Below are positions 40,119 through 60,686 of a stretch of DNA of 64,000 nt, piece after piece; position 1 is the stretch's first letter, and each line of letters begins with the position of its first letter. Location: contig JALGZK010000017.1 in the NCBI GenBank assembly GCA_025774935.1, forward strand, positions 7,798 to 71,797, given 5' to 3'. Below the pieces are notes generated by a model that searched no databases, had not been told where the DNA came from, and worked only from the letters and a program-made list of their open reading frames with translations. This DNA is from a bacterium. GTDB lineage: Bacteria; Joyebacterota; Joyebacteria; Joyebacterales; Joyebacteraceae. Both the position numbers and the translations under genes were made by a program.

Positions 40119-41552
40119 CTAGTTCGGCGGCTCGTAGGGATCGGGAGTACCGGGCCGGATGGGTGGTTCCTTCTGGAGCGACATAACGTGGTCCGTAAGG
40201 AGTTGCCCCGCCGGCCAGCGGATCCAGCCCGCCCTGATCCACTGCGGATCGAGCGGGTTCTCTTCCTTCGGGTCGGTGTGGAGATCGTAGACGAGAGGCA
40301 CCGGATACTCTTTGAGGGGCTCGCCCCACGCACGGTCGAGCTCCTTGAAGACCATTTTCCAGTTCCGCCACTTCACGCCGAAGATTTCGCTCCCGACGTA
40401 GACGATGACGCCCTCGCGGTTCGACTTCTCGTGACCACCCGTGAAGAAGTCGAGCTGGTCGATGCTGTCGATGACGCGGTCGTCGGGCACGTCGCCTCCG
40501 ACCGCACTGGCAAACGTCGCGAAGAGGTCCACCTCGTGGACGATCTCGTTACTGACGAGCCCCTCGGGAACGTTCCCGGGCCACCGCATGAGGAACGGCA
40601 CCCGAAGCGAGCCCTCGTAGCCTGTGAAGTAGGTGCTCCGCCACGGCCCGCTGAACCCGTGCCACGGCACCTGCGCGTCGGGCCCGTTGTCGGCGGTGAA
40701 GATGAAGATCGTCTCGTCCCGGATGCCGAGCCGGTCGACCTCGTCGAGGAGCATGCCGACGTAGACGTCGAGCTGTGCAAGAACATCGGCGAAGTCGCCG
40801 TTCCCCGTCTTCCCCGCGAAGTCCGGGTGCGGCGTGAACGGCATGTGCGTCTGCGTGTAGGGCAGGTAGAGGAAGAACGGTCTCTCGGCTTCGACCTGGC
40901 GCCGCATGAAGTCGATCGACAGCTCGGTCAGCTCGCCGTCGATGAGGGCGCGCTCCTCGAGGTCGTATACGCGGAGGTTCGCGGGCTCCTCGCCCCTCAC
41001 GCCTTCCATGATGTGCTCGGGATGCGCGAACGGATGTGAGTCGGGCCTGAAGCGGCTGTCGTTGGGCCAGAACGCCTCGTCCGAGGAGTTCGGGATCCCG
41101 TACCACTCGTCGAACCCCTGGTCCGTGGGGTATCTCCCCTCCGTGTGACCGAGGTGCCACTTGCCGAACATGCCGGTCGCGTAGCCCGCGTCCGAGAGCA
41201 TCTCGGCCATCGTGTACTCCCACTGCGTGAGGCCGTAGATCGGCGACTCGATCGGGATTGACGCGTTCCCCGTGCGGATGGCGTAGCGCCCCGTGAGGAT
41301 CGCGGCCCTGCTTGGCGTGCACTGGGCTTCCACGTTGAAGTTCGTGAGCCGGATGCCCTCCGACGCGAGCTTGTCGAGCCGGGGCGTCGGCGCCCCGCGG
41401 ATGATCCCGCCGCCATAGCAGCCGAGCTCCCCATACCCGAAGTTGTCCATGAAGATGAGGACGATGTTCGGCTTGGACGCGGCCTGCGCGGCCGCGGGCT
41501 TGAGCGCGAACGTCGCGGCTAGAAGCCCGAAGACGGCCATGAGGAACTTCAT
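40119..41552 (-). CDS. Secreted type I sulfatase (arylsulfatase family)
   Basis: 477 aa with a cleavable signal peptide ([12 protein letters not shown]...AQA). Hydrolyses sulfate esters. The formylglycine site is C78 in [34 protein letters not shown] and TADNGPD give the metal and sulfate ligands. It needs a formylglycine-generating enzyme not seen here. Its place between the B12 subunit and a mutase gene, inside a cluster of cytosolic acyl-CoA genes, is odd. Base use resembles the neighbours, so recent transfer is not evident. Confidence 0.92.
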
Positions 41553-41564
41553 CGTCTCCCCCTT

Positions 41565-43238
41565 TCACCCGTTGGGGTGAGGCAGGACCTCCCGGAGGAC
41601 CCCGATCATCTCCCCGATCGTGGCGTACACCCGGGAGCACTGAACGAAGTGTGGCATCAGGTTGTCGGTGCCCTCGGCCGCGGCGCGGAGTCCCGCGAGG
41701 GCTTTCGTGACCGCTGCGTCGTCGCGCTCCGTCCTCACCTGTGCGAGCACCTCCCGCTGCCGCTCCGCAACGTCCGCGCCGATCTTCAGGAGCTCGATCT
41801 TGATCTCCTCGCCCTCGTCGACGTGTTCGTTCACGCCGACGATTACCTGGCGGTTCTCCTCGATCGCTCGCTGGTACCGGAACGCGGCCTTCGCGATGTC
41901 GCGCTGGAAGAACCCCTTCTCGATCGCCGGGATGACGCCGCCGAGCTTCTCGATCTTGTCGAAGTAGTCGCGGCAGCCTTCCTCCATCCTGTTCGTGAGC
42001 GCCTCGACGTAGTACGACCCGCCGAGGGGGTCGATCACGTTCGGGACGCCGGACTCGTGCGCGATGACCTGCTGGGTCCGGAGGGCTACGTGCACGGCCT
42101 CTTCGGAAGGGAGCGCGAGCGACTCGTCCATCGAGTTCGTGTGGAGGCTCTGCGTTCCGCCCATCACGGCGGCCAGCGCCTCGAGCGCGGTCCGGACGAC
42201 GTTGTTGAACGGCTGCTGCGCTGTAAGGCTGCAGCCCGCCGTCTGCGTGTGGAACCGCATGAGCCACGACCGGGGGTCCTTCGCCCCGTACTTCTCCTTC
42301 ATGTCGGTCGCCCAGATCCGTCTCGCGGCGCGGAACTTCGCGACCTCCTCGAAGAAATCCATGTGCGAGTTGAAGAAGAACGAGAGTCTCGGCGCGAACT
42401 CGTCGACGTCCATCCCGGCCGCGATGCCGGCCTCGACGTAGGCGAACCCGTCGGCGAGCGTGAACGCGAGCTCCTGGAGCGCGGTCGAGCCCGCCTCGCG
42501 GATGTGGTAGCCGCTGATCGATATCGTGTTCCACTGCGGGACGTCGGTCGCGCAGTACTGCATGATGTCGGTGATGATCCGCATCGAGGGCTCGGGCGGG
42601 AAGATCCAGCTCTTCTGCGCGATGTACTCCTTGAGGAGGTCGTTCTGGATCGTGCCGCGCAGCTTCTTCGAGTCGACGCCCTGTTTCTCCCCCACGCAGA
42701 TGTACATGGCGAGGAGCACGGCCGCGGGAGCATTGATCGTCATCGACGTCGAGACCTTGTCGAGCGGAATCCCGTCGAAGAGGGTCTCCATGTCGCGGAG
42801 CGAATCGATCGCGACGCCGCACACGCCCACCTCGCCCTCCGCCCGTTCGTGGTCGGAGTCGTAGCCCATGATCGTCGCGAGATCGAAGGCGACCGAGAGC
42901 CCGGTCTGCCCGTGCTCGAGCAGGAACTTGTACCGTCTGTTCGAGTCCTCGGGCGTTCCGAACCCCGAGAACTGCCGCATCGTCCAGAGGCGGCCGCGGT
43001 ACATGTTGTGGCGGACCCCCCGCGTGTACGGGTACTCGCCGGGGAACCCGAGGTCGTTCAGGTAGTCGAGATCCGCGACGTCGTCAGGTGTGTAGAGGAG
43101 GTCGACCTCCTCGCCGGAGACCGACGTGAACTCGGCGTCGCGCTGGCGGGACGACTCGGTGGCGTTCCCCTCCCAGGCCTTCCTCGCACCAGCGACATCG
43201 CCGGTTCCGCTCTTCTTCGTGGTGTCAACGTCCGCCAT
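41565..43238 (-). CDS. Acyl-CoA mutase large subunit with isobutyryl-CoA mutase signature
   Basis: 557 aa. Same fold as 32200-33861 and also without a B12 domain. The two residues that distinguish isobutyryl-CoA mutase from methylmalonyl-CoA mutase (Phe and Gln in place of Tyr89 and Arg207) are Phe90 (TMRQFSGF) and Gln208 (KEYIAQKSW). Q198 and [11 protein letters not shown] are conserved. It likely interconverts isobutyryl- and n-butyryl-CoA, linking valine catabolism with beta-oxidation. GGGAGG precedes the ATG, and the gene overlaps the upstream NuoG-HdrA gene by 14 bases. Confidence 0.88.
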
Positions 43239-44997
43239 CGCTGCCTCCCATGAGAGCGACGACCTGGGCCAGGAGCTGGTCAGACGAGAAGTGCGCCATC
43301 GAGATCGTGCCCGAAGGACACGCCGCCGCGCACGTGCCGCAGCCCTTGCAGAGCGCCTCGTTGCAGCTCGACACGTCCTTCTCCTCGTCGAGCGTGAGAG
43401 CGCCGTAAGGGCAGACGGAGATGCAGATCCTGCAGCCTGCGCAGAGGTCCTCGTCGATCGAGCACGAGAGAGCCTCGACCGTGACCGTGCCCTTCGACAT
43501 CGGGATGATCGCCGAGGACGCTGCGGCCTTCGCCTGGGCGACCGTGTCGGGGATGTCCTTCGGCCCCTGGCAGCAGCCGGCGAGGTAGATGCCCTCGCTC
43601 GCGGTGTCGACGGGACGGAGTTTCGGGTGGGCCTCCATGAGGAAGTTGTCCTGGGAGCAGCAGAGCTTGAGCGCGTTCGCGAGGCGTCCGGTGCCCTCGC
43701 GAGGGACGAGCCCCGCCGCCAGGACGACGAGGTCGGCCTCGACGTCAAGCGGCTCGCCCTCGAGCGTGTCCTCGCCCCGAACGACCAGTCGGTCCTTCCT
43801 CTTGTAGATCTCGGAGACGCTCCCGCGCCGGTAGATGACCCCCTCCTTCCGCACGCGGTCGTAGAACTCCTCGAACCCCTTCCCGAACGCCCGGATGTCC
43901 ATGTAGAAGACCGTCACGTTCGCGTCGGGGATCTTCTCCTTCACGAGGTGCGCCTGCTTCGCAGTGAACATGCAGCAGACGCGCGAGCAGTACTCGTTCC
44001 CCACGGTCTCGTCGCGCGAGCCCACGCACTGGATGAACACGACGTCCTTGGGCTTCTTCCCCGCGATCACGATCTCTCCTGTCGTCGGACCCGACGCCGA
44101 GCAGATTCGCTCCATCTCGAGCCCGGTGATCACGTTCTCGTACGAGGCGTACCCGAGCTCGGGCTTGAGGCAGGGGTCGAACTCGTCGAAGCCCGTCGCG
44201 ACGACGACCGTTCCGACCTGAAGCGGCTCCTCCCGCTCCTCCATCTCGTAGTCGATCGCGTCGGGACCACAGACCTTCTCGCACACGCCGCAGGTGCCCA
44301 GGGTCTTCTTCAGGCAGTGCTCGTCGTCGAGCACGGGGACCGCGGGGACCGCCTGCGGGAACGGGAGGTAGATCGACGACCTCGAGACGAGACGGGTGTC
44401 GAACTCGGACGCGAGCGGCCGGGGCGTGAGGTCGGTGATGAGCCCGAGGTCGATCGCGTCGGTCGGGCAGATGAACTCGCACGCGCCGCAGGCGATGCAG
44501 ACCTCCGACTTCTCGGCATACGGCGTGGCGATCGCGCGGTTGTCGCCTCGCCCGCGGAACGCGAGCGCTCCGGCTCCTACGACGTCGCGGCACATGCGGA
44601 CGCAGAGCCCGCACATGATGCAGCGGTTGTCGCTCCGGTCCTCGGGCGTCCGGAACGGGGTCCCCTCGATCCCGAGCTTCGCCGCGAGGTCGCGGATCTC
44701 GACCGCGTCCGGCGCTTCGGCGAGCATGAGCTCGACGACGAACCGCCGCGCCTTCCGGACCATCTCGGAGTCGGTCCGGACCTCGCCCTCCCACGCGGGG
44801 TAGGTGCACGCCGGGTGCAGCCTCGACTTCCCCTTCCAGATCGTCTCCACCACGCAGACCCGGCACGCGCCGTACGGGGTGAGCCCCCGGTAGGTGCAGA
44901 GCGTCGGGATCTCGATCCCGAGCTCGACGGCCGCCTCGAGCACGGTCCGGTTCTGGTCGGCCTCTATCTCGTGTCCGTCGATGATCAGGAGACCCAT
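43225..44997 (-). CDS. NuoG-like N-terminus fused to the C-terminal half of HdrA
   Basis: 590 aa. Residues 1-75: [2Fe-2S] ferredoxin domain (C34, C45, C48, C64). Residues 120-180: two [4Fe-4S] clusters ([22 protein letters not shown]), as in NuoG/HydA-type subunits but without the NuoG His-Cys3 cluster. From about residue 195 it is Hdr[64 protein letters not shown], then two terminal [4Fe-4S] clusters (519-529 and 550-560) and [11 protein letters not shown]. The N-terminal FAD-motif half of HdrA is missing here and is found on 46968-48311. I chose ATG 44997 (MGLLIIDG), with AGAGG upstream. Confidence 0.88.
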
Positions 44998-45064
44998 TCC
45001 CGGTGTTCCTCTCGTTCCTTTGGTGTCCATGGCTTCGCGGCGCGGGCGCCCGGCGCCCCCGCCG

Positions 45065-46918
45065 CTACTCGATCTTGATCGCGTCGAACTTGCAGGACTC
45101 GAAGCAGATGCCGCACTTGATGCACTCGTCCTGGTCGATCGCGTGGACCTTCTTGGGCTCGCCCTCGATGCACTCCTGCGGGCACTTCTTCGCGCATACG
45201 GTGCAGCCGGTGCAGGCGTCGGCGATCACGCTGTACGTGACGAGCGCCTTGCAGACCCCGGCCGGGCAGCGCTTCTCCTCGATGTGCGCGCGGTACTCGT
45301 CCTTGAAGTACCGGAGGGTCGTCAGGACCGGGTTCTGCGCGGTCGAGCCGAGCTGGCAGAGAGCGGTCTGTTCGAGACCCCACGAGAGGTACTCGAGCTC
45401 GTCGATGTGCCTGGCCTCCCCGTTTCCGTCGCAGATGTCTGAGAGTATCGCGTGCATCTGGCGAAGGCCCTCGCGGCACGGGGTGCACTTCCCGCACGAC
45501 TCGTCCTTCAGAAACCCGACGAAGTACTTCGCGATGTCGACCATGCAGTTCCTGTCGTCCATCACGATCATGCCGCCCGAGCCCATCATCGATCCCGCCT
45601 CGGTGAGGCGGTCGAAGTCGACCTCGAGGTCGAGGAGGTCGGCCGGGATGCAGCCCCCGGAGGGCCCTCCCGTCTGGACCGCCTTGAACTCGCGCCCGCC
45701 GCGGATGCCGCCGCCGATGTCGTCGACGATCTCGCGGAGCGTGACGCCCATCGGGACCTCGACGAGACCGGTGTTCACGACTTTGCCCACGAGCGAGAAG
45801 ATCTTCGTGCCCTTGCTCCCCTCGGTTCCGATCTCGGCGAACCAGTCTGCGCCCTTGTCGACGATCAGGGGCACGTTCGCCCAAGTCTCGACGTTGTTGA
45901 GGACCGTCGGGCGCATGCGGAGCCCGCGCTCCACCGTGTGGATGTGCTTCGGCCTCGGCTCGCCTGGGCGTCCCTCGATCGACGCCATGAGCGCGGTCGA
46001 TTCGCCGCAGACGAACGCGCCGCCCCCGCGCGCCACCGACACGTCGAACGCGAACCCTGTGCCGAGGATGTTCTCTCCGAGGAGCCCCGCCGCGCGCGCG
46101 TCGTCGAGGGCGCGGGTGAAGTTCGCGACCGCGAGCGGGTACTCCTCGCGGACGTAGATGTAGCCCTCGTTCACTCCGAGGGCGAACGCGCCGATCACCA
46201 TCCCTTCGAGGACGCTGTGCGGGTTACCCTCGAGGATGCTCCTGTCCATGTACGCGCCGGGGTCGCCCTCGTCCGCGTTGCAGATGAGGTAGCGCGTGTC
46301 CCCGGGCGCCTTCAGGCACGACTCCCACTTCTTCCCGGTCGGGAAGCCCCCGCCGCCCCTCCCGCGGAGACCTGACGACTTCACGGCCGCCACGATCTCG
46401 TCGGGCATCATCGAGCCGAGCGCCTTCGCCAGCGGCGCGTATCCACCGATCGCGACGTAGTCCTCGATGCTCGTGGGATCGAGAACGCCGTTCCTGCCGA
46501 GGATGAGCCGCGTCTGGTGCTTGTAGAACGGAACGTCCTCCTCGCGGACGATCTTCTCGCCGGACGCGGAGTCGACGTAGAGGAGCCGCTCGACGAGACC
46601 GTCGCCCACGACGGATGTTTCGACGACCTCAGGAACGTCCTCGGGCTTGACCTGCTGGTAGAGCGTGCCGCCGGGCTGGATGACGACGAGCGGTCCCCTC
46701 TCGCAGAACCCGTGGCACCCCGTCGTCAGCACGCGGACCTTCGACGCGAGGCCTCGCGATTCGACCTCCTCACGGAACGCCTCCGCGACCTTCCCGCCGC
46801 CGCATGCGATGCAGCCGGTACCGCAGCAGACCGCGACCACGCGCGCGCCCGGATCCCGCTCCTTCAGGATCTCCTTCCGCGCCTTGTCGAGGTCTGCGAT
46901 GTCCTTGACGTGCCTCAT
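45065..46918 (-). CDS. NuoF-type NADH-binding flavoprotein subunit
   Basis: 617 aa. N-terminal thioredoxin-like [2Fe-2S] domain (VCCGTGCIACGGG...TTGCHGFCERGP), then the NuoF core: GLRGRGGGGFPTGKKWE (FMN/NADH), NADEGDPGAYMDR, ESCGKCTPCREG ([4Fe-4S]); then a two-cluster ferredoxin tail (CTGCTVCAKKCP, CIKCGICFESC). This is the HydB/HndC architecture of soluble NAD-linked bifurcating enzymes. It lies between the two HdrA-half fusions and should be the NAD(H) site of the complex. The ATG at 46918 has GGAAGGAA upstream. Confidence 0.94.
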   Translation of the reverse strand: MRHVKDIADLDKARKEILKERDPGARVVAVCCGTGCIACGGGKVAEAFREEVESRGLASKVRVLTTGCHGFCERGPLVVIQPGGTLYQQVKPEDVPEVVETSVVGDGLVERLLYVDSASGEKIVREEDVPFYKHQTRLILGRNGVLDPTSIEDYVAIGGYAPLAKALGSMMPDEIVAAVKSSGLRGRGGGGFPTGKKWESCLKAPGDTRYLICNADEGDPGAYMDRSILEGNPHSVLEGMVIGAFALGVNEGYIYVREEYPLAVANFTRALDDARAAGLLGENILGTGFAFDVSVARGGGAFVCGESTALMASIEGRPGEPRPKHIHTVERGLRMRPTVLNNVETWANVPLIVDKGADWFAEIGTEGSKGTKIFSLVGKVVNTGLVEVPMGVTLREIVDDIGGGIRGGREFKAVQTGGPSGGCIPADLLDLEVDFDRLTEAGSMMGSGGMIVMDDRNCMVDIAKYFVGFLKDESCGKCTPCREGLRQMHAILSDICDGNGEARHIDELEYLSWGLEQTALCQLGSTAQNPVLTTLRYFKDEYRAHIEEKRCPAGVCKALVTYSVIADACTGCTVCAKKCPQECIEGEPKKVHAIDQDECIKCGICFESCKFDAIKIE

Positions 46919-46967
46919 GCTGTTCCTTCCGTGTGGTCTGTCGTCCGCCGCCCGGACGGAGCGCTGG

Positions 46968-48311
46968 TCACGCGCCCGCGTGGGCCGCGAAGACGTCGTC
47001 GGTCCCACCGGGTGCCACGGAGTGGTACTCGTTGTCCATCACGACCACCGGGCCGAGCGCGCAGCATCCCAGGCAGTTCACCGTGAGAAGAGTGTAGGCG
47101 AGGTCGTCGGTCGTCTCTCCCGGACCGATCCCGAGCCGGCGCTCTAACTCTTCGAGCACGCGCACCGCGCCGCGCGCGTGGCAGGCGGTGCCCATGCAGA
47201 CCTTGATGATCTGTTTCCCGCGAGGCTCGAGGCTGAACGAGGTGTAGAACGACGCCACGTGGTAGATCGTCGCCGGCGGGATGCCGAGCCGGAACGACAC
47301 GTACTTGAGCGCGTCGACCGGCAGGTAGTTGTACTCGATGTTCACGTCCTGGAGGATCTGGATGAGCTCCTCCGCGTCTGCGCCGTGCTCCGCGATGATC
47401 TCGTCGAGCTTCCCCCGGTCTCCATCCGCGAGGTCGCGTGGGATGCCCGGCGGCTCGCGGAGCTGCGGCACGTTCCTAATCGGACACTCGGCGTAGCAGA
47501 GCCCGCAGTTCGTGCACTTGTCGATGTCGACGTAGCGCGCCTTCCTCGTGATGGTCGCCGTGAAGTTCCCGATGTACCCCTCGGTCTCCTTGATCTCGGA
47601 GTAGGTCATGAGGTCGATGTTCGGGTGCCTCCCTGCGTCGACCATCTTCGGGGTCAGGATGCAGGCCGAGCAGTCGAGCGTCGGGAACGTCTTGTCCAGC
47701 TGCGCCATGCGTCCGCCGATCGTCGCGTCCTTCTCGACGAGGTGGACGCGGTACCCCGCCTCGGCGATGTCGAGCGCGGACTGGATGCCCGCGATGCCGC
47801 CGCCCACGACCAGCGCCTCCGGGATGACGGGGACCTCCCGCTCGATGAGGGGCTTCAAGTGCGTCGCCCGCGCGGCCGCGGCCCGGACGAGGTCGATCGC
47901 CTTCTCGGTCGCCGCCTCCGGGTCCTCGGTGATCCACGAGCACTGCTCGCGGATGTTGGCCATATCGAAGAGGTACTGGTTCACGCCGGCGTCGGCGAGG
48001 GCCGCCCGGAAGGTCGGCTCGTGCATCCTCGGAGAGCACGCGGCGACAACGACCGCCGTGAGATCGTTCTTCTCGATGTCTTCCTTGATGAGCGTCTGGC
48101 CGGGGTCGGAGCACATGTACGGGTAGGTCTTCGAGACGACGACGTTCGGGAACGTCGACGCGACCTCCGCCACCCTCCTCACGTCAACCATGTAGGCGAT
48201 GTTGATCCCGCAGTGGCAGACGTAGACGCCGACCCTGGGTTCCCTCTCGAGAGCGGGCCCGGCGTTTCTCGTCCCGCCGCCTTCCGCCGGCGAGCGGTCT
48301 TCCTTGGCCAT
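46968..48311 (-). CDS. N-terminal half of HdrA fused to NuoE
   Basis: 447 aa. Residues 25-280 are the N-terminal part of HdrA: VGVYVCHCG, MCSDPGQ, ACSPRMHEPTFR, FDMANIREQCSW, the FAD motif VVGGGIAGIQSALD at 168-181, IGGRMAQLDKTFPTLDCSAC and a [4Fe-4S] site (C266, C269, C272, C276). HdrA stops at about 280; residues 300-447 are a full NuoE thioredoxin-like [2Fe-2S] domain (C372, C377, C413, C417). The missing HdrA continuation is on 43225-44997. AAGGAG precedes the ATG. Confidence 0.88.
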   Translation of the reverse strand: MAKEDRSPAEGGGTRNAGPALEREPRVGVYVCHCGINIAYMVDVRRVAEVASTFPNVVVSKTYPYMCSDPGQTLIKEDIEKNDLTAVVVAACSPRMHEPTFRAALADAGVNQYLFDMANIREQCSWITEDPEAATEKAIDLVRAAAARATHLKPLIEREVPVIPEALVVGGGIAGIQSALDIAEAGYRVHLVEKDATIGGRMAQLDKTFPTLDCSACILTPKMVDAGRHPNIDLMTYSEIKETEGYIGNFTATITRKARYVDIDKCTNCGLCYAECPIRNVPQLREPPGIPRDLADGDRGKLDEIIAEHGADAEELIQILQDVNIEYNYLPVDALKYVSFRLGIPPATIYHVASFYTSFSLEPRGKQIIKVCMGTACHARGAVRVLEELERRLGIGPGETTDDLAYTLLTVNCLGCCALGPVVVMDNEYHSVAPGGTDDVFAAHAGA

Positions 48312-48347: not shown

Positions 48348-49322
48348 CTAGGCGCGGAGCTCGGTGATCTTCTCGGTCAGGGCCGGAACGACCTTCATGA
48401 GGTCGCCCACGATGCCGTAGTGCGCCGCCTGGAAGATGGGGGCCTTCGGGTCCTTGTTGATCGCGACGATGGTCTCGGCGGACTTCATGCCGGCCACGTG
48501 CTGGAACTGCCCGGAGACGCCGATCGCGACGTAGAGTTTCGGCTTGACGGTCTTCCCGGACGAACCGACCTGACGGTCCTTCGGGAGCCACCCGGCGTCG
48601 ACGACTGGGCGCGAGCACGCGACGACCCCGCCCAGGAGCTCGGCGAGGCCGGTGATCAAGGGCATGTTCTCCTCTTCCTTGATCCCTCGGCCGATGGCGA
48701 TGACCACGTCCGACTTCGTGATGTCGACCTCGCCCGCGGCGGCCTCGACGTACTCGACGAACCGGCGGAACGCGGGCTCATCGGGGACCTCGGTGTCGAG
48801 GGCAACGACGCTCCCGCCGCGCGAGGCCTCCTCCGGTGCGAAGGCGGCGGGTCGAACCGTCACGAGGCTGATCGCGGCGCCGCCGAACCCCACCCGCTCG
48901 TTGACCTTCCCGCCGTACGTCTGCCGGGTCCCCACGAGGTCGGACCCTTCGACCGCGAGGTCGATGACGTCTGACGCGAGCGGGGCGTCGAGCGCGACCG
49001 CGAGGCTGGGAGCCAGGTCGACGCCGAACGCGGTGTGGCCGATCATAACGACCGACGGCTCCCGCCCCCGGATGACGTCGGCCAGAACCGGCTGATAGAC
49101 TGCCGAGTTGTAGTGCGCGAACCCATCGTGATCGCGGACGAGGACCTCGTCGGCCTGCTGCGCGAGCCTCTCCGCGAGATCGCCAACGCCCGATCCGAGA
49201 AGGACCGCGGCGACCTTCGTCCCGGACGCGTCGGCCACTCCCCTCGCGTGCGCGAGCATCTCGAAGGTCACGTCCTTGAGTTCGCCGTTCAGGTGTTCAG
49301 CGAGGACAAGCACGTCGTTCAT
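48348..49322 (-). CDS. etfA: Electron transfer flavoprotein alpha subunit
   Basis: 324 aa. C-terminal FAD-binding signature [23 protein letters not shown]...[11 protein letters not shown] is intact; the N-terminal ETF domain is normal. The ATG abuts the etfB stop. It receives electrons from the three acyl-CoA dehydrogenases of the cluster and hands them on; no membrane ETF:quinone oxidoreductase is in the window, but Fe-S genes flank it on both sides. Confidence 0.95.
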
Positions 49323-50111
49323 CTACGCGAATCCCTTCTCTTTGAGAACGTCGGCAAGCTTCGTGGACGCCTCGGCGGGCGTCCCGTCGAGGATCTCCGC
49401 ACCCTCGCCGGCCGGCGGGTAGTCGAGTCCAAGGAGCGTCGTCTTCGAGCCCGCCTTCCCGGCCTCGGCGGTGTCGAGACCGAGGTCGGACGCGGCCTTC
49501 GTGTCGATGTCGCGCTTGGCCGCCTTCGCGATCCCCATGATCGAGGCGTAGCGGGGCTCGTTGATGCCGGTCTGGATCGTCACGACGGCGGGGAGCTTGA
49601 TCTCGAGCTTCTCCAGGAGCCCGCCCTCGAGCTCGCGTCCGACGGTCACGGCGCCGTCGCCGATCTCCATCTCGGTGACGTACGTGGCGTGCGGCACGCC
49701 GAGCATCTCGGCGAGCGTGACGCCGACCTGGGTCATCCCGTCGTCCGACGCCATGCACCCTGTGAGAACCAGGTCGTACTCCATCCCGCCGATGGCCTTG
49801 GCGAGCGCGTTCGCCGTCGCCCACGCGTCCCCGCCATCGAACGCCGGGTCAGCGAGGCGGACCGCCTCGGTCGCGCCCTTCGCCATGCACATCCGGAGGA
49901 CCTCCTCGGAGGAGTCCGGACCGAGCGTGATCACGGTGACCTCGCCGTCCCTGTCCTCCTTGATGAGGAGCGCCTCCTCGAGCGCGTAGTTGTCGGACTC
50001 GTTGATCTGGAGAGGAAGCCCCTCCATCTCGATGCCGCTCCCGTCTGAGGCGATCCTGACGTCGGCCTCGGCGGTGTCCGGCACCTGTTTCACGCATACG
50101 ACGATGTTCAT
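49323..50111 (-). CDS. etfB: Electron transfer flavoprotein beta subunit
   Basis: 262 aa. NIVVCVKQVPDT start, NYALEEALLIKE, TGCMASDDGMTQVGVTLAEMLG (nucleotide loop) and LPAVVTIQTGINEPRYAS are ETF-beta hallmarks. Whether it is a bifurcating type with a second FAD cannot be settled by eye. The ATG at 50111 is chosen because it gives the standard MNIVVCVKQ start. Confidence 0.95.
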   Translation of the reverse strand: MNIVVCVKQVPDTAEADVRIASDGSGIEMEGLPLQINESDNYALEEALLIKEDRDGEVTVITLGPDSSEEVLRMCMAKGATEAVRLADPAFDGGDAWATANALAKAIGGMEYDLVLTGCMASDDGMTQVGVTLAEMLGVPHATYVTEMEIGDGAVTVGRELEGGLLEKLEIKLPAVVTIQTGINEPRYASIMGIAKAAKRDIDTKAASDLGLDTAEAGKAGSKTTLLGLDYPPAGEGAEILDGTPAEASTKLADVLKEKGFA

Positions 50112-50169: not shown

Positions 50170-51291
50170 CTAGAGCGCCATCGCGGCGAGCTCGGCGAGG
50201 TCGAGTATCTCGATCTTCCCCTCGCAGCCACTCGTCTTCACCGCGTCCTCGAGGGTCAGGAGGCAGAACGGACACGCGGTCACGAGTGTGTCCGCTCCGA
50301 GCTCGACGGCGTCCTTGACCCGCGTGTCGGCGAGACGCTCGCCCCTCTCGTCCTCCGCCTCGACCCACATCCTCCCGCCGCCGCCTTCGCAGCAGAGGGC
50401 GCGCTCGCGGGAACGGTCGAGGTCCTCGAACTCGACACCCGAGATGCGTTCGATCACGCTCCGGGGCTCGTCGAAGATCGCGTTGTGCTTCCCGAGGAAG
50501 CAGGGGTCGTGGTACGTCACCTTCCGCTCCACGCTTCCCTTGAACGCGAGCTTCCCTTCGTCGAGAAGCCCCGCGAGGTACTGCGAGTAGTGCACGACCT
50601 CGTCCGCGACGCCGCCGTACTCGTTCAGGAGCGTGTTCATGCAGTGGGGCGAGCTCGTCACGACCGCGTCGATCGAGTGGCTGGCGAACGCTTCTCGGTT
50701 CCCCTCGACGAGAAGCTCGAAGAGCCCCTCCTCTCCCATCCGCTTGACCTCGTTCCCGCAGCACGACTCGGCTGCGCCCAGGGTCGAGTAGCCGACGCCG
50801 GCCGCCTCGTAGAGACGGACGAGCGCCCGGGCGACGTCCTGGCACCGGGGATCGTAGGCCGGCGTGCACCCGACGTACCAGAGGAGCGGGACGGCGTCGC
50901 CGTCTCCCGCGACCGGAACGTCGAGTTCGTCTGCCCACTCGGTCCTCTTCTCCCTGCCCCGGCCCCACGGGTTCCCGTGCTTGAACGTGCTCTCGAGCGC
51001 GTCCCTGATCGTAGGCGAGACCTTCCCCCGCTCGATCGAGGAACCGCGAAGCCCAATCAGAAGTTCCATGGGCTTCACGCCCTTCGGGCAGCGCTCCGTG
51101 CACGTCGCGCACGTGGTGCAGCTCCAGGCCTCCGGACGTTCGTGCGCGCCCTTCGGGGCCGGCCCGATGAGCCCGTCGTAGACGACCTTCCGCACATTCA
51201 GATACGTGCGGAGCGACACCGGGCAACCCGCCGTGCACCTCCCGCACTGGATGCAGCCGAGGAGCTCGTACTTGTCAGCAAGTGATGGCAT
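50170..51291 (-). CDS. HdrD-like soluble iron-sulfur protein (two [4Fe-4S] plus two CCG domains)
   Basis: 373 aa without membrane helices. Two [4Fe-4S] motifs (C13-C16-C19-C23, C58-C61-C64-C68) correspond to HdrC. Two CCG domains correspond to HdrB: the first has C142, C177-C178 and a single C217; the second is complete (C264, C300-C301, C340-x2-C343). Such proteins reduce disulfides or accept electrons from ETF; the ETF-linked relatives I know carry membrane helices, absent here. It sits between etfBA and an acyl-CoA dehydrogenase, so an ETF-to-Hdr/Nuo link is likely. Confidence 0.9.
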   Translation of the reverse strand: MPSLADKYELLGCIQCGRCTAGCPVSLRTYLNVRKVVYDGLIGPAPKGAHERPEAWSCTTCATCTERCPKGVKPMELLIGLRGSSIERGKVSPTIRDALESTFKHGNPWGRGREKRTEWADELDVPVAGDGDAVPLLWYVGCTPAYDPRCQDVARALVRLYEAAGVGYSTLGAAESCCGNEVKRMGEEGLFELLVEGNREAFASHSIDAVVTSSPHCMNTLLNEYGGVADEVVHYSQYLAGLLDEGKLAFKGSVERKVTYHDPCFLGKHNAIFDEPRSVIERISGVEFEDLDRSRERALCCEGGGGRMWVEAEDERGERLADTRVKDAVELGADTLVTACPFCLLTLEDAVKTSGCEGKIEILDLAELAAMAL

Positions 51292-51340: not shown

Positions 51341-52483
51341 CTACTTGAGCTCGTTCCGCGCGATGACGAGCTTCTGGATCTGGCTCGTCCCCTCGTAGAT
51401 CTCGATGATCTTCGCGTCCCTGTACATCCTCTCGACGGCGTACTCCTTCGAGTAACCGTAGCCGCCGTGAATCTGGACGGCCTTCCTCGTCACGTCGACC
51501 ACGATCTCCGCGGCGAAGTACTTCGCCATCGCGGCCTCGCGCGTGAACCTCTTGGCGCCAGCGTCCTTCATCGAGGCGGACCGGTAGACGAGGAGCCTCG
51601 CGGCGTCGATCTTGGTCGCCATGTCGGCGATCATGTCCTGGATCATCTCGAACTCGGCGATGGGCTTCCCGAACTGCTGCCGCTCCTTCGCGTACTTCAC
51701 CGAGGCGTCCAGGGCGCCCTGCGCGATGCCGACTCCCTGCGCGCCGATGTCGATCCTCGAGACGTCCAGCGTGGTCATGACGACCTTGAACCCCTGCCCC
51801 TCCTCACCCAGCAGGTTCTCCTTCGGGACCATGCAGTCGTCGAAGATGAGTTCGGTGTTGCCGGTGGCGCGGATGCCCATGAGGTTCTCGTGCTTCCCGA
51901 TCGAGAACCCCGGGAAGTCCTTCTCGACGATGAAGGTGCTCATCCCCTTGTGCCGGGCGGAAGGGTCGGTGTACGCGAACACGATGAAGAGCCCCGCCGC
52001 CTCCGCATTCGTGATCCAGCACTTCGTCCCGTTCAGCCTGTAGTGGTCGCCCTCGAGGACCGCGGTCGTCTCCATCGACGCGGGGTCCGACCCGGCGTTC
52101 GGCTCGGTGATGCCGATGGCGCCGAGCGCCTTCCCGGACGCGAGCATCGGGAGGTACTTCTTCTTCTGCTCCTCGGTCCCGAACTGGAAGATCGGGAACG
52201 TGGCGAGCGAGTTATTCACCGCGGTGATCACGCCGGTCGAAGCGCAGACCCGCGAGATCTCCTCGACGATGATCGCGAGCGTGGTGAAGTCCATTCCCGC
52301 TCCGCCGTACTCCTCGGGAATCACGACGCCGAGGAGCCCCAGCTCCGCCATCTTCTTCATGGTCGCGTGAGGGAACTCGCGAGACTCGTCGATCTCCGCG
52401 GCGATGGGCTCGATCTCGTTCATGGCGAACTCGCGCACCATGTCGCGGACCATCTTTTGGTCCTGGCTCAAGCTGAAGTCCAT
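51341..52483 (-). CDS. Acyl-CoA dehydrogenase (short-chain type)
   Basis: 380 aa, the most classical of the three: GAIGITEPNAGSDPASM, CWITNAEAAGLF, AVQIHGGYGYSKEYAVERMYRDAKIIEIYEGTSQIQ with the catalytic Glu in YEGT. Butyryl- or 2-methylbutyryl-CoA would be a typical substrate. It is directly upstream of the HdrD-like and ETF genes, the natural electron acceptors. Confidence 0.93.
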   Translation of the reverse strand: MDFSLSQDQKMVRDMVREFAMNEIEPIAAEIDESREFPHATMKKMAELGLLGVVIPEEYGGAGMDFTTLAIIVEEISRVCASTGVITAVNNSLATFPIFQFGTEEQKKKYLPMLASGKALGAIGITEPNAGSDPASMETTAVLEGDHYRLNGTKCWITNAEAAGLFIVFAYTDPSARHKGMSTFIVEKDFPGFSIGKHENLMGIRATGNTELIFDDCMVPKENLLGEEGQGFKVVMTTLDVSRIDIGAQGVGIAQGALDASVKYAKERQQFGKPIAEFEMIQDMIADMATKIDAARLLVYRSASMKDAGAKRFTREAAMAKYFAAEIVVDVTRKAVQIHGGYGYSKEYAVERMYRDAKIIEIYEGTSQIQKLVIARNELK

Positions 52484-54632: not shown

Positions 54633-55157
54633 ATGAAGAAGCTGCTAATTGCTATTGCGATCCTCGCCATCGCGGCCCCGGCCATGGCTCGCGAGATCGA
54701 GGGCGCGTTCGTGGATCTGGTCGACCCGGCGGCGAATGAGCTCATCCCCGGTGCGACCATGACCCTGAAGTTCATCGTCCAGAACGATTCGAGTGACGCC
54801 GAATGGCTCACCGACGTTCACATCGCGTTCCCCGACGGGTTCGTCCTCCACGAGAGCACGATGGCCTACGACATGATCGTGGCCGGCCGGCCGAGCTGGG
54901 ACCAGTATGTCCCGCCGGTTGACCACACGGCCATCTGGGAGGACAACAACGGTGGCTGGGGCGAGGTCTACAGCACCGAGTTCACGCACGTCTACATCGA
55001 CGTGACGATCCCCGACCAGCTCTACGGCTGCATCTACTGGTCGCTGTGGGGAGACGAGTACGGCGACGAGCCCCACTGGGTCTGCGGCTGCATCGACGTC
55101 GGCTTCAGCCCGGTCGAGGATGCGACGTGGGGTGCGATCAAGGCGATGTACAGGTAG
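54633..55157 (+). CDS. Secreted protein, family B copy 1, with conserved C-terminal motif
   Basis: 174 aa. AGGAGG before the ATG; signal peptide KKLLIAIAILAIAAPAMA. The mature part is a single beta-rich domain (GATMTLKFIVQNDSSDAEWL, DVHIAFPDGFVLHES, then an aromatic DNNGGWGEVYSTEF region), unlike family A. It is homologous to 55675-56196. It ends SPVEDATWGAIKAMYR, the same C-terminal motif as family A. Own promoter and strong terminator. Function unknown. Confidence 0.87.
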   Translation: MKKLLIAIAILAIAAPAMAREIEGAFVDLVDPAANELIPGATMTLKFIVQNDSSDAEWLTDVHIAFPDGFVLHESTMAYDMIVAGRPSWDQYVPPVDHTAIWEDNNGGWGEVYSTEFTHVYIDVTIPDQLYGCIYWSLWGDEYGDEPHWVCGCIDVGFSPVEDATWGAIKAMYR

Positions 55158-55190
55158 TCCGAGCGCTCAACAAGCAGTACTGCTTTCCGA

Positions 55191-55224
55191 GAGCCCCGGC
55201 CATGTGGCCGGGGCTCTTCCTTTT
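55191..55224 (+). terminator. Rho-independent terminator of family B copy 1
   Basis: Perfect 11-bp stem GAGCCCCGGCC/GGCCGGGGCTC (55191-55201, 55206-55216), 4-base loop, then TTCCTTTT. Confidence 0.92.
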
Positions 55225-55408
55225 CACGTGCGCCTCTCCGACGGCCTCGTCGGCTGCTCCCGGGCACCGTTGCCCCCGGGGTCCCGGGCTCCGGGCGGCC
55301 ACGACCAGCAGGGGTCGGCAGGGCCCGCCGCAGGGATCCCAGCGCCGTCTCCCGGCTTCTCGCCCCTCCCACGCCCTCCAGACCCCCCCAGGGGCCTCAT
55401 CCTAACTC

Positions 55409-55437
55409 TTGACAAGTTCTGATACTCGTGATATCCT
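55409..55437 (+). promoter_or_regulatory. Sigma70-type promoter of family B copy 2
   Basis: Perfect TTGACA (55409-55414), 17-base spacer, TATCCT (55432-55437); leader of about 230 bases. Confidence 0.75.
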
Positions 55438-55580
55438 GATTATAGAGGGATGGCGACTCTCTGATTCAGACGGGCCATCGGGCCCACGGTTCGAGGGACA
55501 CAATCCACGATCTCGACTGCCCTGCTCCTCTCAGGGGAGCGCAGCAATGGAAGGAGGGCAGCCCGGGATAAGAGCAAGTC

Positions 55581-55609
55581 GACGGCACCGCGCCGAGCGC
55601 GATGCCGTC
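55581..55609 (+). promoter_or_regulatory. Long leader hairpin before family B copy 2
   Basis: GACGGCA/TGCCGTC outer stem and CGCGC/GCGCG inner stem separated by one C-A mismatch, loop CGA. No T-run follows, so it is a leader structure rather than a terminator. Confidence 0.5.
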
Positions 55610-55674
55610 TGTTCACAGGTGGACCGGCTGCAGTCTCGCAGCCCCAAGTGCAGGTAGTACGAAGGAGGACGACG

Positions 55675-56196
55675 ATGAAGGTCCTGATGGTAGCGATCAC
55701 GATTCTGGCGCTCACGTTCGCCGCCGGCGCGCGTGAGATCGACGGCGCGTACGTGTCCCTGACGTCGCCCGCGCCGCTCGACATCGTCCCGGCGACGGTG
55801 ATGACGTTCATCTTCTGGGTCCAGAACGACTCAGGCGACGCGGAGTGGCTCAGCAACATCCATATCACGTTCCCCGACGGCTTCAATCTCGTGGAGGGCT
55901 CGATGGGATTCGCCGAGATCGCCACAGGCCGACCCAGCTTCGACATGACCGTCAGCGGACAGACGGCTCAGTGGGACGACAACGACGGCGGCTACGGCGA
56001 GATCTACAGCACCGAGGGCACGGAGGTGTGGGTCGACGCGTTCGTCCCGGGCTGCTACGAGTGCGGCGAGCTCTACTGGGAACTCTGGGGTGACGTCTGG
56101 GGCGCGGAGCCTCACTACGTCGACGGGGTCATCGACCTCTGCCCCTCGCCCGTCGAGGAGTCGACTTGGGGATCCATCAAGGCGCTCTACAGGTAG
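55675..56196 (+). CDS. Secreted protein, family B copy 2, with conserved C-terminal motif
   Basis: 173 aa. GAAGGAGG before the ATG; signal peptide VLMVAITILALTFAAGA. Homologous to 54633-55157: REIDGAYVSL, FIFWVQNDSGDAEWL, NIHITFPDGFNLVEG, DDNDGGYGEIYSTEG, and the late ELYWELWGD segment. It ends SPVEESTWGSIKALYR. Its terminator is shared with the converging tmRNA gene. Function unknown. Confidence 0.87.
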   Translation: MKVLMVAITILALTFAAGAREIDGAYVSLTSPAPLDIVPATVMTFIFWVQNDSGDAEWLSNIHITFPDGFNLVEGSMGFAEIATGRPSFDMTVSGQTAQWDDNDGGYGEIYSTEGTEVWVDAFVPGCYECGELYWELWGDVWGAEPHYVDGVIDLCPSPVEESTWGSIKALYR

Positions 56197-56227
56197 GACC
56201 ACACCCGCGACGCGATCCGAGACGAAG

Positions 56228-56262
56228 AAAGGCCCCGGCATGGACTGCCGGGGCCTTTCACA
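56228..56262. terminator. Bidirectional terminator shared by family B copy 2 and tmRNA
   Basis: Perfect 13-bp stem AAAGGCCCCGGCA/TGCCGGGGCCTTT (56228-56240, 56246-56258). The A/T ends give a short T-tract on either strand. It lies 31 bases after the plus-strand stop and just beyond the tmRNA CCA end. Confidence 0.88.
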
Positions 56263-56264
56263 TA

Positions 56265-56623
56265 TGGTGGAGGCGGCGGGAGTCGAACCCGCGTCCGAAA
56301 GCGATTCCACACGGACCTCTACATGCTTAGCCCGATCTTTGGATCTCGCCCCCCGGGTCTCCAATGGGCGGGATACCCGGCGAGCCAGCCACCGTATAGA
56401 GTTCGCCTCCTCACCCAGCGGCAAAGCTCGGAGACTATCCCGTGTAAGCGACGCCCCATCCCGGCCCCACGGGCAAAACCGGGTGGGACGCGTCCGCTCT
56501 AGTTAGCAGACGTATGCCGGCTGGTAGTCGGCAGTTGAAAAGTCCCCGTTTGTTTAACGAGCCAACGGGACCTCGGCATGCCATCCGTGTTTCTCTCACC
56601 CCCGTCGAAACCGGATCGCCCCC
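56265..56623 (-). ncRNA. ssrA: Transfer-messenger RNA
   Basis: 359 nt. The 5' end GGGGGCGATCCGGTTTCGAC and the 3' end GGACGCGGGTTCGACTCCCGCC...TCCACCA form the tRNA-like domain (acceptor GGGGGCG/CGCCTCC, encoded CCA). PK1 is GUCCCGUU/AACGGGGAC. The resume codon is most likely GCC at 56532, giving the tag ADYQPAYVC followed by TAA (56505-56503) and TAG. The tag ends in VC rather than the usual AA. Rescues stalled ribosomes together with SmpB (not in this window). Confidence 0.95.
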
Positions 56624-56668
56624 ATATGTCGATATCAATGAGCTCTGGCGCTTCTCCGCGCCAACTTT

Positions 56669-56697
56669 AATCTACCGCAGTCCTCGCGGGGAGTCAA
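56669..56697 (-). promoter_or_regulatory. Sigma70-type promoter of ssrA
   Basis: TTGACT (56697-56692), 17-base spacer, TAGATT (56674-56669) on the minus strand. The short leader to 56623 contains a GGCGC/GCGCC hairpin and would be removed by RNase P. Confidence 0.75.
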
Positions 56698-56719
56698 GGT
56701 GTCGGGCGGCCGGGCGGGG

Positions 56720-57094
56720 TCAGTCGAGGTCGCGCTGCGAGAGCGCGCGGAAGTACTGGTACCTCACGCCGTCGCGCTCGACGAGCGCTTCGAACGCTTC
56801 CCTGATGCGATCCGGGTTCGTGATGGCCGGATCGTACTCGACGATCGCGGAGTTGTTGCGAGCGTAGGTCGTGACGCTGATCATCCCCGGCACCTCGGCG
56901 GTCATCTTCACGAATCCCATGGACGTGCCGCGGCACCGGACTCCCTCGACGATGTACTCGACCGTGCCCACCTCCGCCGGGCGCTCCACATCGAACGGGA
57001 AGTGGAGCGTCGGCACCCGGTACAGGTTCGCTGTGGCGAACGCCGCGACGACGAGCACCGCGATCGCTGCGGGGATGATGACCGCCTTTCGCAT
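56720..57094 (-). CDS. Membrane-anchored HMA-like protein, metal-site cysteine pair incomplete
   Basis: 124 aa. N-terminal signal anchor (residues 1-24). The rest follows the ferredoxin-like heavy-metal-associated fold: VEYIVEGVRCRGTSMGFVKM, then GMISVTTYARNNSAIVEYDPAITNPDRIREAFE. The usual CxxC is CRGT, with only one cysteine, so metal binding would differ from classical HMA domains. It follows the NapH-like Fe-S protein gene by about 60 bases, suggesting a joint redox or metal-related role in the envelope. Confidence 0.75.
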   Translation of the reverse strand: MRKAVIIPAAIAVLVVAAFATANLYRVPTLHFPFDVERPAEVGTVEYIVEGVRCRGTSMGFVKMTAEVPGMISVTTYARNNSAIVEYDPAITNPDRIREAFEALVERDGVRYQYFRALSQRDLD

Positions 57095-57152
57095 GATGTG
57101 TCTTCCTTCCCCGACGTCGGCCGCGACTCAGGCGGCCGCGCAGTTCCCGCTG

Positions 57153-57929
57153 CTACTTCCCGTAGCAGGACAGCTCGAGCGCTCCCGACTCCGGACACTC
57201 TGACACGCAGTCGAGGCAGTTGGTGCAGTTGCGGGCGGTCACCTCGATCTCTCGCGAGACCGGGATCTGGTGCGGGCACACCCGGTCGCACTCTCCGCAC
57301 TCCGTGCAGGCTTCGGGGTTCCGCCGGACGCGGAGCCCGCCGTAGCGGGAGAGCGGGTCCATGACGGCGCCGAGCGGGCAGAGGTAGCGGCACCAGAAGA
57401 ACGGAACGAGCACCGCGGCCGCGAGGATCGCGAAGAGGATGTAGAAGCTGAACGCGGCGGTCCCGTGTCCGCCCCACGTGAACAGGATGTAGAACGGGTC
57501 GTACGCGCGGAACCCGAGGTCGCCCTTCCAGACGGTCCACGTGAGCAGGAGCACCAGGACGAGCACGACGTAGCGGAGGTTCATCGCCCAGCGGTCGCCG
57601 CGGTCGGGCAGGTGGAACGACCGGCCGAAGACCTTCCGGCCCGCGCGGGAGAGCCACTCGCTCACTGTCCCGAACGGGCAGACCCAGCTGCAAAACGACT
57701 TCTTCGTCGCGATCGTGAGCACGAAGAGGGACACCATGAGGGACACGTTGAGCTCGGTAAGCCGGCACGTGTACTGGCCGTACCGCGCGAGCGGTAAGAG
57801 CGCTGCAACGCCCCCGAATGGGCAGTACGCCTCGCAGGTGTTCGGCGTCAGCCCGGCGATCCCCCTCGCCATGAGGACGACCGTGCCGGCCAGAAACGCG
57901 ATCTGAACGAGTGTCCTGAGAACCCTCAC
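57153..57929 (-). CDS. NapH/NosR-like polytopic ferredoxin
   Basis: 258 aa with about five membrane helices. Three CxxxCP-type motifs (CEAYCPFGG, CSWVCPFG, CRYLCPLGA) lie near membrane ends, and two C-terminal [4Fe-4S] clusters follow (CTECGECDRVCP, CTNCLDCVSECP). Relatives pass electrons across or along the membrane to periplasmic reductases or thiol systems. GTGA overlap with the upstream epimerase gene. The specific partner is unknown; the HMA-like protein downstream is a candidate. Confidence 0.88.
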   Translation of the reverse strand: MRVLRTLVQIAFLAGTVVLMARGIAGLTPNTCEAYCPFGGVAALLPLARYGQYTCRLTELNVSLMVSLFVLTIATKKSFCSWVCPFGTVSEWLSRAGRKVFGRSFHLPDRGDRWAMNLRYVVLVLVLLLTWTVWKGDLGFRAYDPFYILFTWGGHGTAAFSFYILFAILAAAVLVPFFWCRYLCPLGAVMDPLSRYGGLRVRRNPEACTECGECDRVCPHQIPVSREIEVTARNCTNCLDCVSECPESGALELSCYGK

Positions 57930-58864: not shown

Positions 58865-58912
58865 CGATGAGCTTCCCTCTTGGAAGTCAGTGAGCAGATG
58901 CGGTCGGCGGGC

Positions 58913-59620: not shown

Positions 59621-59658
59621 CGTCGTTCTCCCGCCGCGCGGTTGAATCGTCGGCGCGG

Positions 59659-60651: not shown

Positions 60652-60686
60652 GTGCGTCTCCGTGCGTGTCGGTCGTGCCGTGCGTG

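Follow-up and report, generated by a model that had tools for sequence, protein, structure and literature searches.

A nuoEFG cassette inside hdrA: two fusion proteins that together cover one complete HdrA in a Joyebacterota operon

How can an electron-splitting flavoprotein work if its gene is broken in two? HdrA is a flavoprotein able to split electron pairs. In a 64,000-nucleotide stretch of a Joyebacterota genome (GCA_025774935.1, contig JALGZK010000017.1, positions 7,798 to 71,797; hereafter the window), it is encoded in two pieces, one fused to NuoE and the other to a NuoG-like protein. The original prediction, made from the letters of the window, read this as one HdrA split in two and swapped onto its partners. 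We consider it likely that a Bfu-type nuoEFG cassette lies in frame inside hdrA, that the two chains refold as one HdrA, and that the complex is a soluble ETF:NAD(H)(ferredoxin) oxidoreductase, linking electron-transferring flavoprotein (ETF), nicotinamide adenine dinucleotide (NAD) and ferredoxin.

Is the architecture real? It is confirmed by open reading frames, profiles, structure alignment and a second genome. Both fusion genes lie on the minus strand, and their frames are open without interruption. The features concerned, including the sites of the flavin adenine dinucleotide (FAD) and flavin mononucleotide (FMN) cofactors, are as follows.

46968..48311, minus strand: HdrA-N::NuoE fusion, P0001, 447 aa (profiles, structure model)
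47478..48239, minus strand: N-terminal half of HdrA, with the N-terminal domain, FAD Rossmann motif, C214/C217 and [4Fe-4S] motif I (HdrA2 profile 1-256; alignment to 5odc)
47484..47516, minus strand: motif I of the inserted ferredoxin domain, P0001 C266/C269/C272/C276, with the insertion directly downstream (invariant in 7 fusions)
46971..47414, minus strand: NuoE/BfuC domain (PF01257, E=5.1e-43; 9mqx_C, Z 18.2)
45065..46918, minus strand: NuoF/BfuB, P0003, 617 aa, with an N-terminal thioredoxin-like [2Fe-2S] domain, an FMN/NAD domain and a C-terminal 2x[4Fe-4S] ferredoxin (domain profiles; B2 ligands of 7t2r_B)
43225..44997, minus strand: NuoG::HdrA-C fusion, P0002, 590 aa (profiles, structure model)
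44446..44997, minus strand: NuoG/HoxU-like N-terminal domain, [2Fe-2S] and two [4Fe-4S] (profile; 9mqx_A, Z 23.0)
43228..44406, minus strand: C-terminal half of HdrA, with motif II, the FAD domain with E296 (= E356) and K347 (= K409), and the C-terminal ferredoxin (HdrA2 profile 253-641; alignment to 5odc)
44269..44316, minus strand: motif II of the inserted ferredoxin domain, P0002 C228/C236/C239/C243 (invariant in 11 fusions and 44 sequences)

Residues 26-279 of P0001 match positions 1-256 of the NCBIfam HdrA2 profile (385 bits), and residues 191-583 of P0002 match positions 253-641 (476 bits). The two matches are complementary, with an overlap of ~4 profile positions. Neither chain alone reaches the curated cut-off of 1100 bits for this 777-position profile, and only P0001 and P0002 jointly reach the full HdrA domain set: N-terminal domain, FAD domain, inserted ferredoxin and C-terminal ferredoxin. 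This domain mapping bears out the prediction that the pieces add up to one full HdrA with almost no overlap, with NuoF encoded between them. P0001 likewise runs from the start of HdrA to the [4Fe-4S] site near residue 280 and then becomes NuoE (residues 303-431), as proposed. In P0002, a HoxU/HydA/NuoG N-terminal domain (residues 1-183) does precede HdrA, but HdrA resumes at about residues 191-198, slightly before the 12-residue motif at which it had been placed. HdrA breaks off directly after the CP that closes cluster motif I of the inserted ferredoxin domain and restarts with the segment equivalent to NEFD...YxPFPQAVP. No HdrA sequence is lost at the junction.

Single-chain AlphaFold2 models, with a mean predicted local distance difference test score (pLDDT) of 87.6 for P0001 and 85.5 for P0002 and predicted template modelling scores (pTM) of 0.51 and 0.53, divide HdrA in the same way. 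The P0001 model aligns over residues 23-259 to HdrA 2-239 of 5odc (Z 25.2, root-mean-square deviation (rmsd) 4.3) and over 296-447 to the Bfu C subunit. The P0002 model aligns over residues 193-590 to HdrA 258-654 (Z 27.3, rmsd 9.1 over 384 residues; against 8rwn, rmsd 2.5 over 308 residues) and over 1-218 to the Bfu A subunit. The models thus cover complementary ranges of an M. wolfeii-type HdrA, 2-239 and 258-654; residues 240-257, which hold motif I, fall outside the structural alignment and are covered by sequence.

Are the cofactor residues still there? In the 5odc alignment, M. wolfeii HdrA C197 corresponds to P0001 C217, and E356 and K409 to P0002 E296 and K347. C386, C399, C403 and C404, which we take to be the ligands of the FAD-proximal cluster in the 5odc structure, correspond to P0002 C324, C337, C341 and C342. 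The set of FAD and bifurcation residues is complete, and it is divided between P0001 and P0002. With the flavin residues on separate chains, the flavin site would form at the interface of the two, and the rebuilt HdrA would carry one FAD. In two-cluster ferredoxins, each cluster is normally ligated by three cysteines of one motif and one of the other. Because of this 3+1 rule, both clusters of the inserted domain are predicted to be ligated across both chains. E356 and K409 are described as key flavin residues for bifurcation (PMC12054007), and C197 is ascribed a role in the cluster of HdrA's partner subunit (PMC9012536).

The original prediction described NuoEFG in general terms, as the NAD-linked part of soluble hydrogenases and complex I. 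NuoEFG is present, and its type can be narrowed. NuoF has the BfuB domain set, PF01512 (51K), PF10531 (SLBB), PF10589 (NADH_4Fe-4S) and PF00037 (ferredoxin), and P0001 has the BfuC domain. All five ligands named for the unusual B2 cluster (PMC9304861), C438, C476, H525, C531 and C536 in 7t2r_B numbering, are conserved in P0003. Since all five are present, we assign this NuoF, from its sequence, to the Bfu type, and the window NuoEFG is of the Bfu/HydABC type.

Was HdrA swapped onto its partners, or was it interrupted? The neighbouring genes of the window bear on this question.

51341..52483, minus strand: acyl-CoA dehydrogenase, which opens the conserved block and precedes EtfD (PF00441/PF02771; synteny)
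50170..51291, minus strand: EtfD/HdrD-like iron-sulfur protein, 373 aa, soluble form, two [4Fe-4S] and two CCG domains (PF02754 x2, Fer4_8; best PDB match 9ojn_A, E=2e-62)
49323..50111, minus strand: EtfB (PF01012, E=1.9e-42; PDB matches to EtfB of several complexes)
48348..49322, minus strand: EtfA (PF01012 and PF00766)
41565..43238, minus strand: methylmalonyl-CoA mutase (MCM) large subunit, which overlaps the end of NuoG::HdrA-C and follows hdrA, whether intact or split, as a conserved neighbour (PF01642, E=1.5e-227; synteny)

The same operon occurs in one relative of the same genus (G001) and two of the same family (G003, G005), with an intact hdrA of ~660-690 aa at the position of the split. 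The order there is acyl-CoA dehydrogenase, EtfD-like, EtfB, EtfA, hdrA, MCM large subunit, MCM B12 subunit, acyl-CoA dehydrogenase, metallo-hydrolase-like and carboxyltransferase (the G001 contig starts inside EtfB, and the upstream part of this order lies outside it). In the window and in G008, a genome of a different genus, the same flanking genes surround HdrA-N::NuoE, NuoF and NuoG::HdrA-C. Because the orthologous locus of the relatives holds an intact hdrA, the change is better read as an insertion of a nuoEFG cassette into hdrA than as a swap, and the observed gene order is the expected outcome of such a cassette landing in frame. What stands of the rebuilding idea is the complementarity of the halves, their conservation, the selection on them and the retention of all FAD and bifurcation residues. 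From the acyl-CoA dehydrogenase to MCM, genes overlap or are separated by gaps of 0 to 67 bases, as expected for a single operon, and Shine-Dalgarno-like sequences precede most starts. The nearest PDB EtfBs to the window EtfB include bifurcating and plain kinds, and we take the iron-sulfur-binding reductase of 9ojn to be the mycobacterial EtfD (PMC13083937). Between the two MCM subunit genes, the window (40119-41552) and G001 each have a sulfatase gene, with no match at that place in G003, G005 or G008.

The three split genes of G008 are 81-89% identical to those of the window. The ratio of nonsynonymous to synonymous substitution rates (dN/dS) between the two, with dS unsaturated, is 0.19 for HdrA-N, 0.23 for HdrA-C, 0.28 for NuoE, 0.14 for NuoF and 0.21 for NuoG. 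These low values indicate purifying selection, and thus that both HdrA halves are functional. Since G008 carries the same three genes and both halves are under purifying selection, sequencing error is ruled out. The genomes involved all seem to be drafts, which leaves room to suspect an assembly or frameshift artefact joining unrelated genes, but the same junctions recur in many independent genomes, including two lineages with the EtfAB context. This explanation is already refuted, and we give it practically no weight.

Could the halves instead be dead or repurposed HdrA fragments, mere ferredoxin or docking domains on NuoE and NuoG with no FAD site, while a complete HdrA elsewhere bifurcates? 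We searched the source genome by profile for HdrA and EtfA and found five complete HdrA genes elsewhere (on contigs C12, C18 and C30, and two on C27). HdrA pieces also act as electron-transfer domains in other proteins, such as the truncated HdrA-like 6tjr, which P0002 matches as well. However, the two chains retain the FAD motif, E356, K409 and every cysteine of the FAD-proximal cluster, distributed between them; both halves are under purifying selection; and where the operon has an intact orthologue, that protein is a full HdrA. The original prediction had itself raised a complete HdrA elsewhere as the possible partner in the real complex. Such genes exist, but the stretches examined around them showed neither EtfA nor EtfB, profile searches found no other Etf-linked HdrA in the genome, and the one other EtfA found there is distant (42%). 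We hold the fragment explanation to be highly unlikely. The HdrA frame at G000:C12:33532-35880 contains an in-frame TGA, and similar TGAs in HdrA genes of relatives suggest a selenocysteine HdrA.

On which branch did the cassette enter? In the HdrA tree, the window and G008 nest within the intact HdrAs of their family (f1) with 100/100 support, and separate trees of the N and C halves both place them with intact f1 HdrA. The alternative is that the split is ancestral in the family, that intact hdrA was restored or imported in relatives, and that the window gained no insertion. The history of the block gives this some room: over EtfB-EtfA-HdrA, the window is 82-90% identical to G008, across genera, and only 67-73% identical to its congener G001, where the adjacent MCM is 91% identical. 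The sequences indicate that the Etf/HdrA block moved between family lineages or was replaced in G001, so the branch that carries the insertion is not fixed, nor is its direction on the f1 branch proved. On the other side, intact HdrA is the common form, the nesting inside intact HdrAs is fully supported, and an ancestral split would need the precise loss of three genes with rejoining, more than once. Repeated exact restoration of an intact hdrA seems less likely than repeated insertion, and we judge an ancestral split quite unlikely. The identity boundary in G001 (L047, G001:C128, 1-3556), from ~70% in EtfB-EtfA-HdrA to 91% in MCM, is sharp and suggests block replacement.

Insertion into an intact hdrA remains the reading we favor, and the split recurs beyond this family. 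The original prediction knew of no other reciprocal split fusion of this kind; that view does not survive a wider search. Among 242 sampled genomes, 13, belonging to 9 families, carry a total of 17 full-length NuoG::HdrA-C fusions, set apart by a score gap from 339 to 267 bits, and an HdrA N piece lies upstream at 16 of the 17 loci. The order HdrA-N, NuoE, NuoF, NuoG::HdrA-C is retained in unrelated genomes. Among the matches listed in a profile scan, HdrA-N::NuoE and/or NuoG::HdrA-C occur in an uncultured archaeon and an Altiarchaeales archaeon, and such fusions are carried by metagenome-assembled genomes labelled Fibrobacterota, Sedimentisphaerales, Spirochaetes, Desulfobacterales, Cloacimonadota, Glassbacteria, Anaerolineales, Clostridiales and Vicinamibacterales. 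A search of viral contigs gave no match.

The split loci fall into four arrangements. The first has the EtfAB/HdrD context (window, G008, G153); G153, an independent lineage, reads EtfB-EtfA-HdrA-N::NuoE-NuoF-NuoG::HdrA-C-HdrD, so that both architectures of the window recur there as in G008. The second has HdrA-N::NuoE in an HdrCB context (G020, Glassbacteria). The third combines an HdrCB context with a free HdrA-N, and several of its cassettes contain accessory genes like those of hydrogenase clusters (L068, L166). By eye, CBS, PHP-like and histidine-kinase-type ATPase genes, as typical of [FeFe]-hydrogenase clusters, lie in the cassettes at L166 4727-7650, L161 10679-13548 and L068 10796-14260. 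In the fourth, HdrA is in tandem and only its FAD part is on NuoE (C27 of the source genome, L051-L059, L161, L164). The C27 locus (G000:C27 ~55157-61408; L035 2157-8408) is a second, paralogous split system, with the HdrA FAD part fused to NuoE, then NuoF, then NuoG::HdrA-C and a second HdrA in one protein of 1129 aa; it lies near fumarate reductase-like and HdrB-like genes and two intact HdrA genes.

Did the split arise once or several times? The HdrA tree requires five switches between the split and the intact state, each of them forced by starred branches (bootstrap range 5-5); these are gains or losses and not a direct count of insertions. The approximately unbiased (AU) test rejects a single clade of split HdrAs (p=1.7e-5) and one clade of the four closest (p=4e-8). 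As the split HdrAs are not one clade, the split probably arose repeatedly at one site, apparently as a means of connecting HdrA to NADH. A single ancient origin would instead have the split HdrA-NuoEFG arise once and spread, with the apparent independent origins due to later recombination with resident hdrA. The identical insertion site speaks for this, as does a CPxRN/Y-like edge common to split forms in several lineages. Against it, besides the AU tests, both halves of HdrA put the window and G008 with intact f1 HdrA, the window's junction-proximal HdrA is no closer to other split forms than to intact ones, and NuoF proteins of split loci are intermixed with NuoF not fused to HdrA. We therefore think a single origin unlikely, while granting it some weight. 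Import of the junction-proximal HdrA with the cassette from another split system was also considered and found no support, as sliding identity falls near the junction whichever form, intact or split, it is measured against. Within the family, the NuoF of the window and G008 is sister (100/100) to the NuoF of a Bam-like cluster (L050, L181). The NuoE of that cluster seems, by eye, to bear an N-terminal response-regulator-like extension (L050 4326-5345).

It is tempting to see in the inserted-ferredoxin loop a recurrent socket for NAD(P)H modules, into which NuoEFG cassettes were inserted independently several times, giving a cross-ligated 2x[4Fe-4S] ferredoxin and bringing the Bfu and HdrA bifurcation sites together with EtfAB in one soluble machine. 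We offer this broader picture tentatively, and the chances may lie slightly against it.

What would the complex do? The cassette would occupy the loop that separates cluster motifs I and II in the ferredoxin domain inserted in HdrA, leaving HdrA as two polypeptides of one operon. The first would supply the FAD Rossmann part and motif I. From the second would come motif II and the C-terminal ferredoxin, along with the residues that tune the FAD and the FAD-proximal cluster. In ordinary HdrA the ferredoxin arm is used by free ferredoxin; here it would be welded to NuoG/NuoF. EtfAB and the EtfD-like protein are probably part of the complex and would replace HdrBC in linking HdrA to acyl-CoA dehydrogenase, so that the complex may serve acyl-CoA dehydrogenation in this propionyl/methylmalonyl-CoA operon. 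The most economical route would run from EtfAB through EtfD, the HdrA FAD, the inserted ferredoxin, NuoG and NuoF to NAD(H). Sites for ferredoxin would remain on NuoF and on the C-terminal ferredoxin of HdrA. From reported potentials of -10 mV for crotonyl-CoA, -280 mV for NADH and -500 mV for ferredoxin (PMC9304861), simple inference puts the coupled reaction within ~50 mV of equilibrium, and thus either direction is possible: NADH could be formed by confurcation from ETF and reduced ferredoxin, or consumed in the reverse reaction. We lean slightly toward acyl-CoA oxidation.

Several points weigh against this reading. The assembly of a rebuilt HdrA is deduced from single-chain models and sequence, and a pTM of ~0.5 for each leaves the domain arrangement within the chains loose. 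The link of EtfAB and EtfD to the split HdrA comes from operon context. The donor of the cassette is not settled, because the window NuoG is only 39% identical to that of the Bam-like module, versus 58% to that of the G020 split system. Finally, the chains could be separate proteins with incomplete HdrA pieces, although selection on both halves speaks against that.

How does the locus compare with known systems? In HdrA proteins with an inserted GltD/NfnB (type III, PMC12054007; HdrA 9-11 of ANME-1, PMC9012536), an NAD(P)H-binding module also sits in the inserted ferredoxin domain, where GltD is proposed to redirect HdrA to NADH. Those proteins gain one extra domain in one continuous polypeptide, whereas no GltD domain lies between the window's HdrA halves; here the inserted parts are NuoE, NuoF and NuoG, on three cistrons, and HdrA is two chains. 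HdrL of Desulfobacterium autotrophicum is a predicted Hdr/glutamate synthase fusion (PMC2702500). In our own data, L045 10107-14540 encodes a 1477 aa HdrA with an inserted NAD(P)-binding GltD-like domain (by eye) and then a second HdrA, resembling the published type III/HdrL arrangement.

The benzoyl-CoA reductase complex BamB-I (Bam-Bfu, PMC9304861) likewise joins an HdrA-type module to Bfu-type NuoEFG (BamGHI). Its HdrA and NuoEFG-like subunits are described as separate, whereas those of the window are fused and occur with Etf/EtfD and acyl-CoA dehydrogenase. The window neighbours tested (acyl-CoA dehydrogenases, Etf, MCM, MeaB, CobO, carboxyltransferase) include no BamB or BamC; the rest of the genome was not searched for BamB. 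With the HydABC-like Bfu family (PMC9304861), whose enzymes bifurcate reversibly with NAD(H), ferredoxin and a third substrate, the window shares complete BfuB and BfuC cofactor motifs and, with its Type 1, an extra redox module on the BfuA-like [2Fe-2S] + 2x[4Fe-4S] domain. The available part of that paper mentions no HdrA module fused to BfuA, whereas in the window half an HdrA would be the third-substrate module and BfuC bears the other half.

HdrABC-MvhAGD (5odc) and FlxABCD-HdrABC share the HdrA core, FAD residues and clusters, but their HdrA is intact and partnered by HdrBC or Flx rather than by Etf/EtfD and a welded NuoEFG. EtfAB-EtfD systems that couple beta-oxidation to the respiratory chain (PMC13083937) resemble the window in having EtfAB and an EtfD-like Fe-S/CCG protein near acyl-CoA dehydrogenase; the window EtfD, a short protein encoded beside HdrA-NuoEFG, corresponds to no more than a part of the mycobacterial chain of 1042 residues. 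Desulfotignum phosphitoxidans has nuoEFG-hdrA-mvhD-etfAB transcription units (PMC4046663), a gene-level association of the same components; the portion of the paper available mentions no split or fusion, and the comparison is by description rather than sequence. In all, HdrA with inserted GltD/NfnB, HdrL, Bam complexes, nuoEFG-hdrA operons and the Bfu family are already published. An HdrA broken around NuoEFG appears to be new: the literature covered, which did not extend to the main review of HdrA modules, holds no description of one, and priority is uncertain.

Bioenergetics has yet to settle by what path NADH supplies electrons to HdrA, or how anaerobes, lacking a membrane complex for the task, pass electrons from acyl-CoA back to NAD+. 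If HdrA is a two-chain protein whose ferredoxin arm is joined to an NADH module, its electron route would be fixed in covalent structure. From the fusion one can predict the arm of HdrA that meets NADH, the HdrA pieces in contact with NuoE and NuoG, and the cysteines that ligate the shared clusters. Recurrence at a single site shows where HdrA tolerates interruption, and the split loci of bacteria and archaea provide several systems in which these predictions may be tested.

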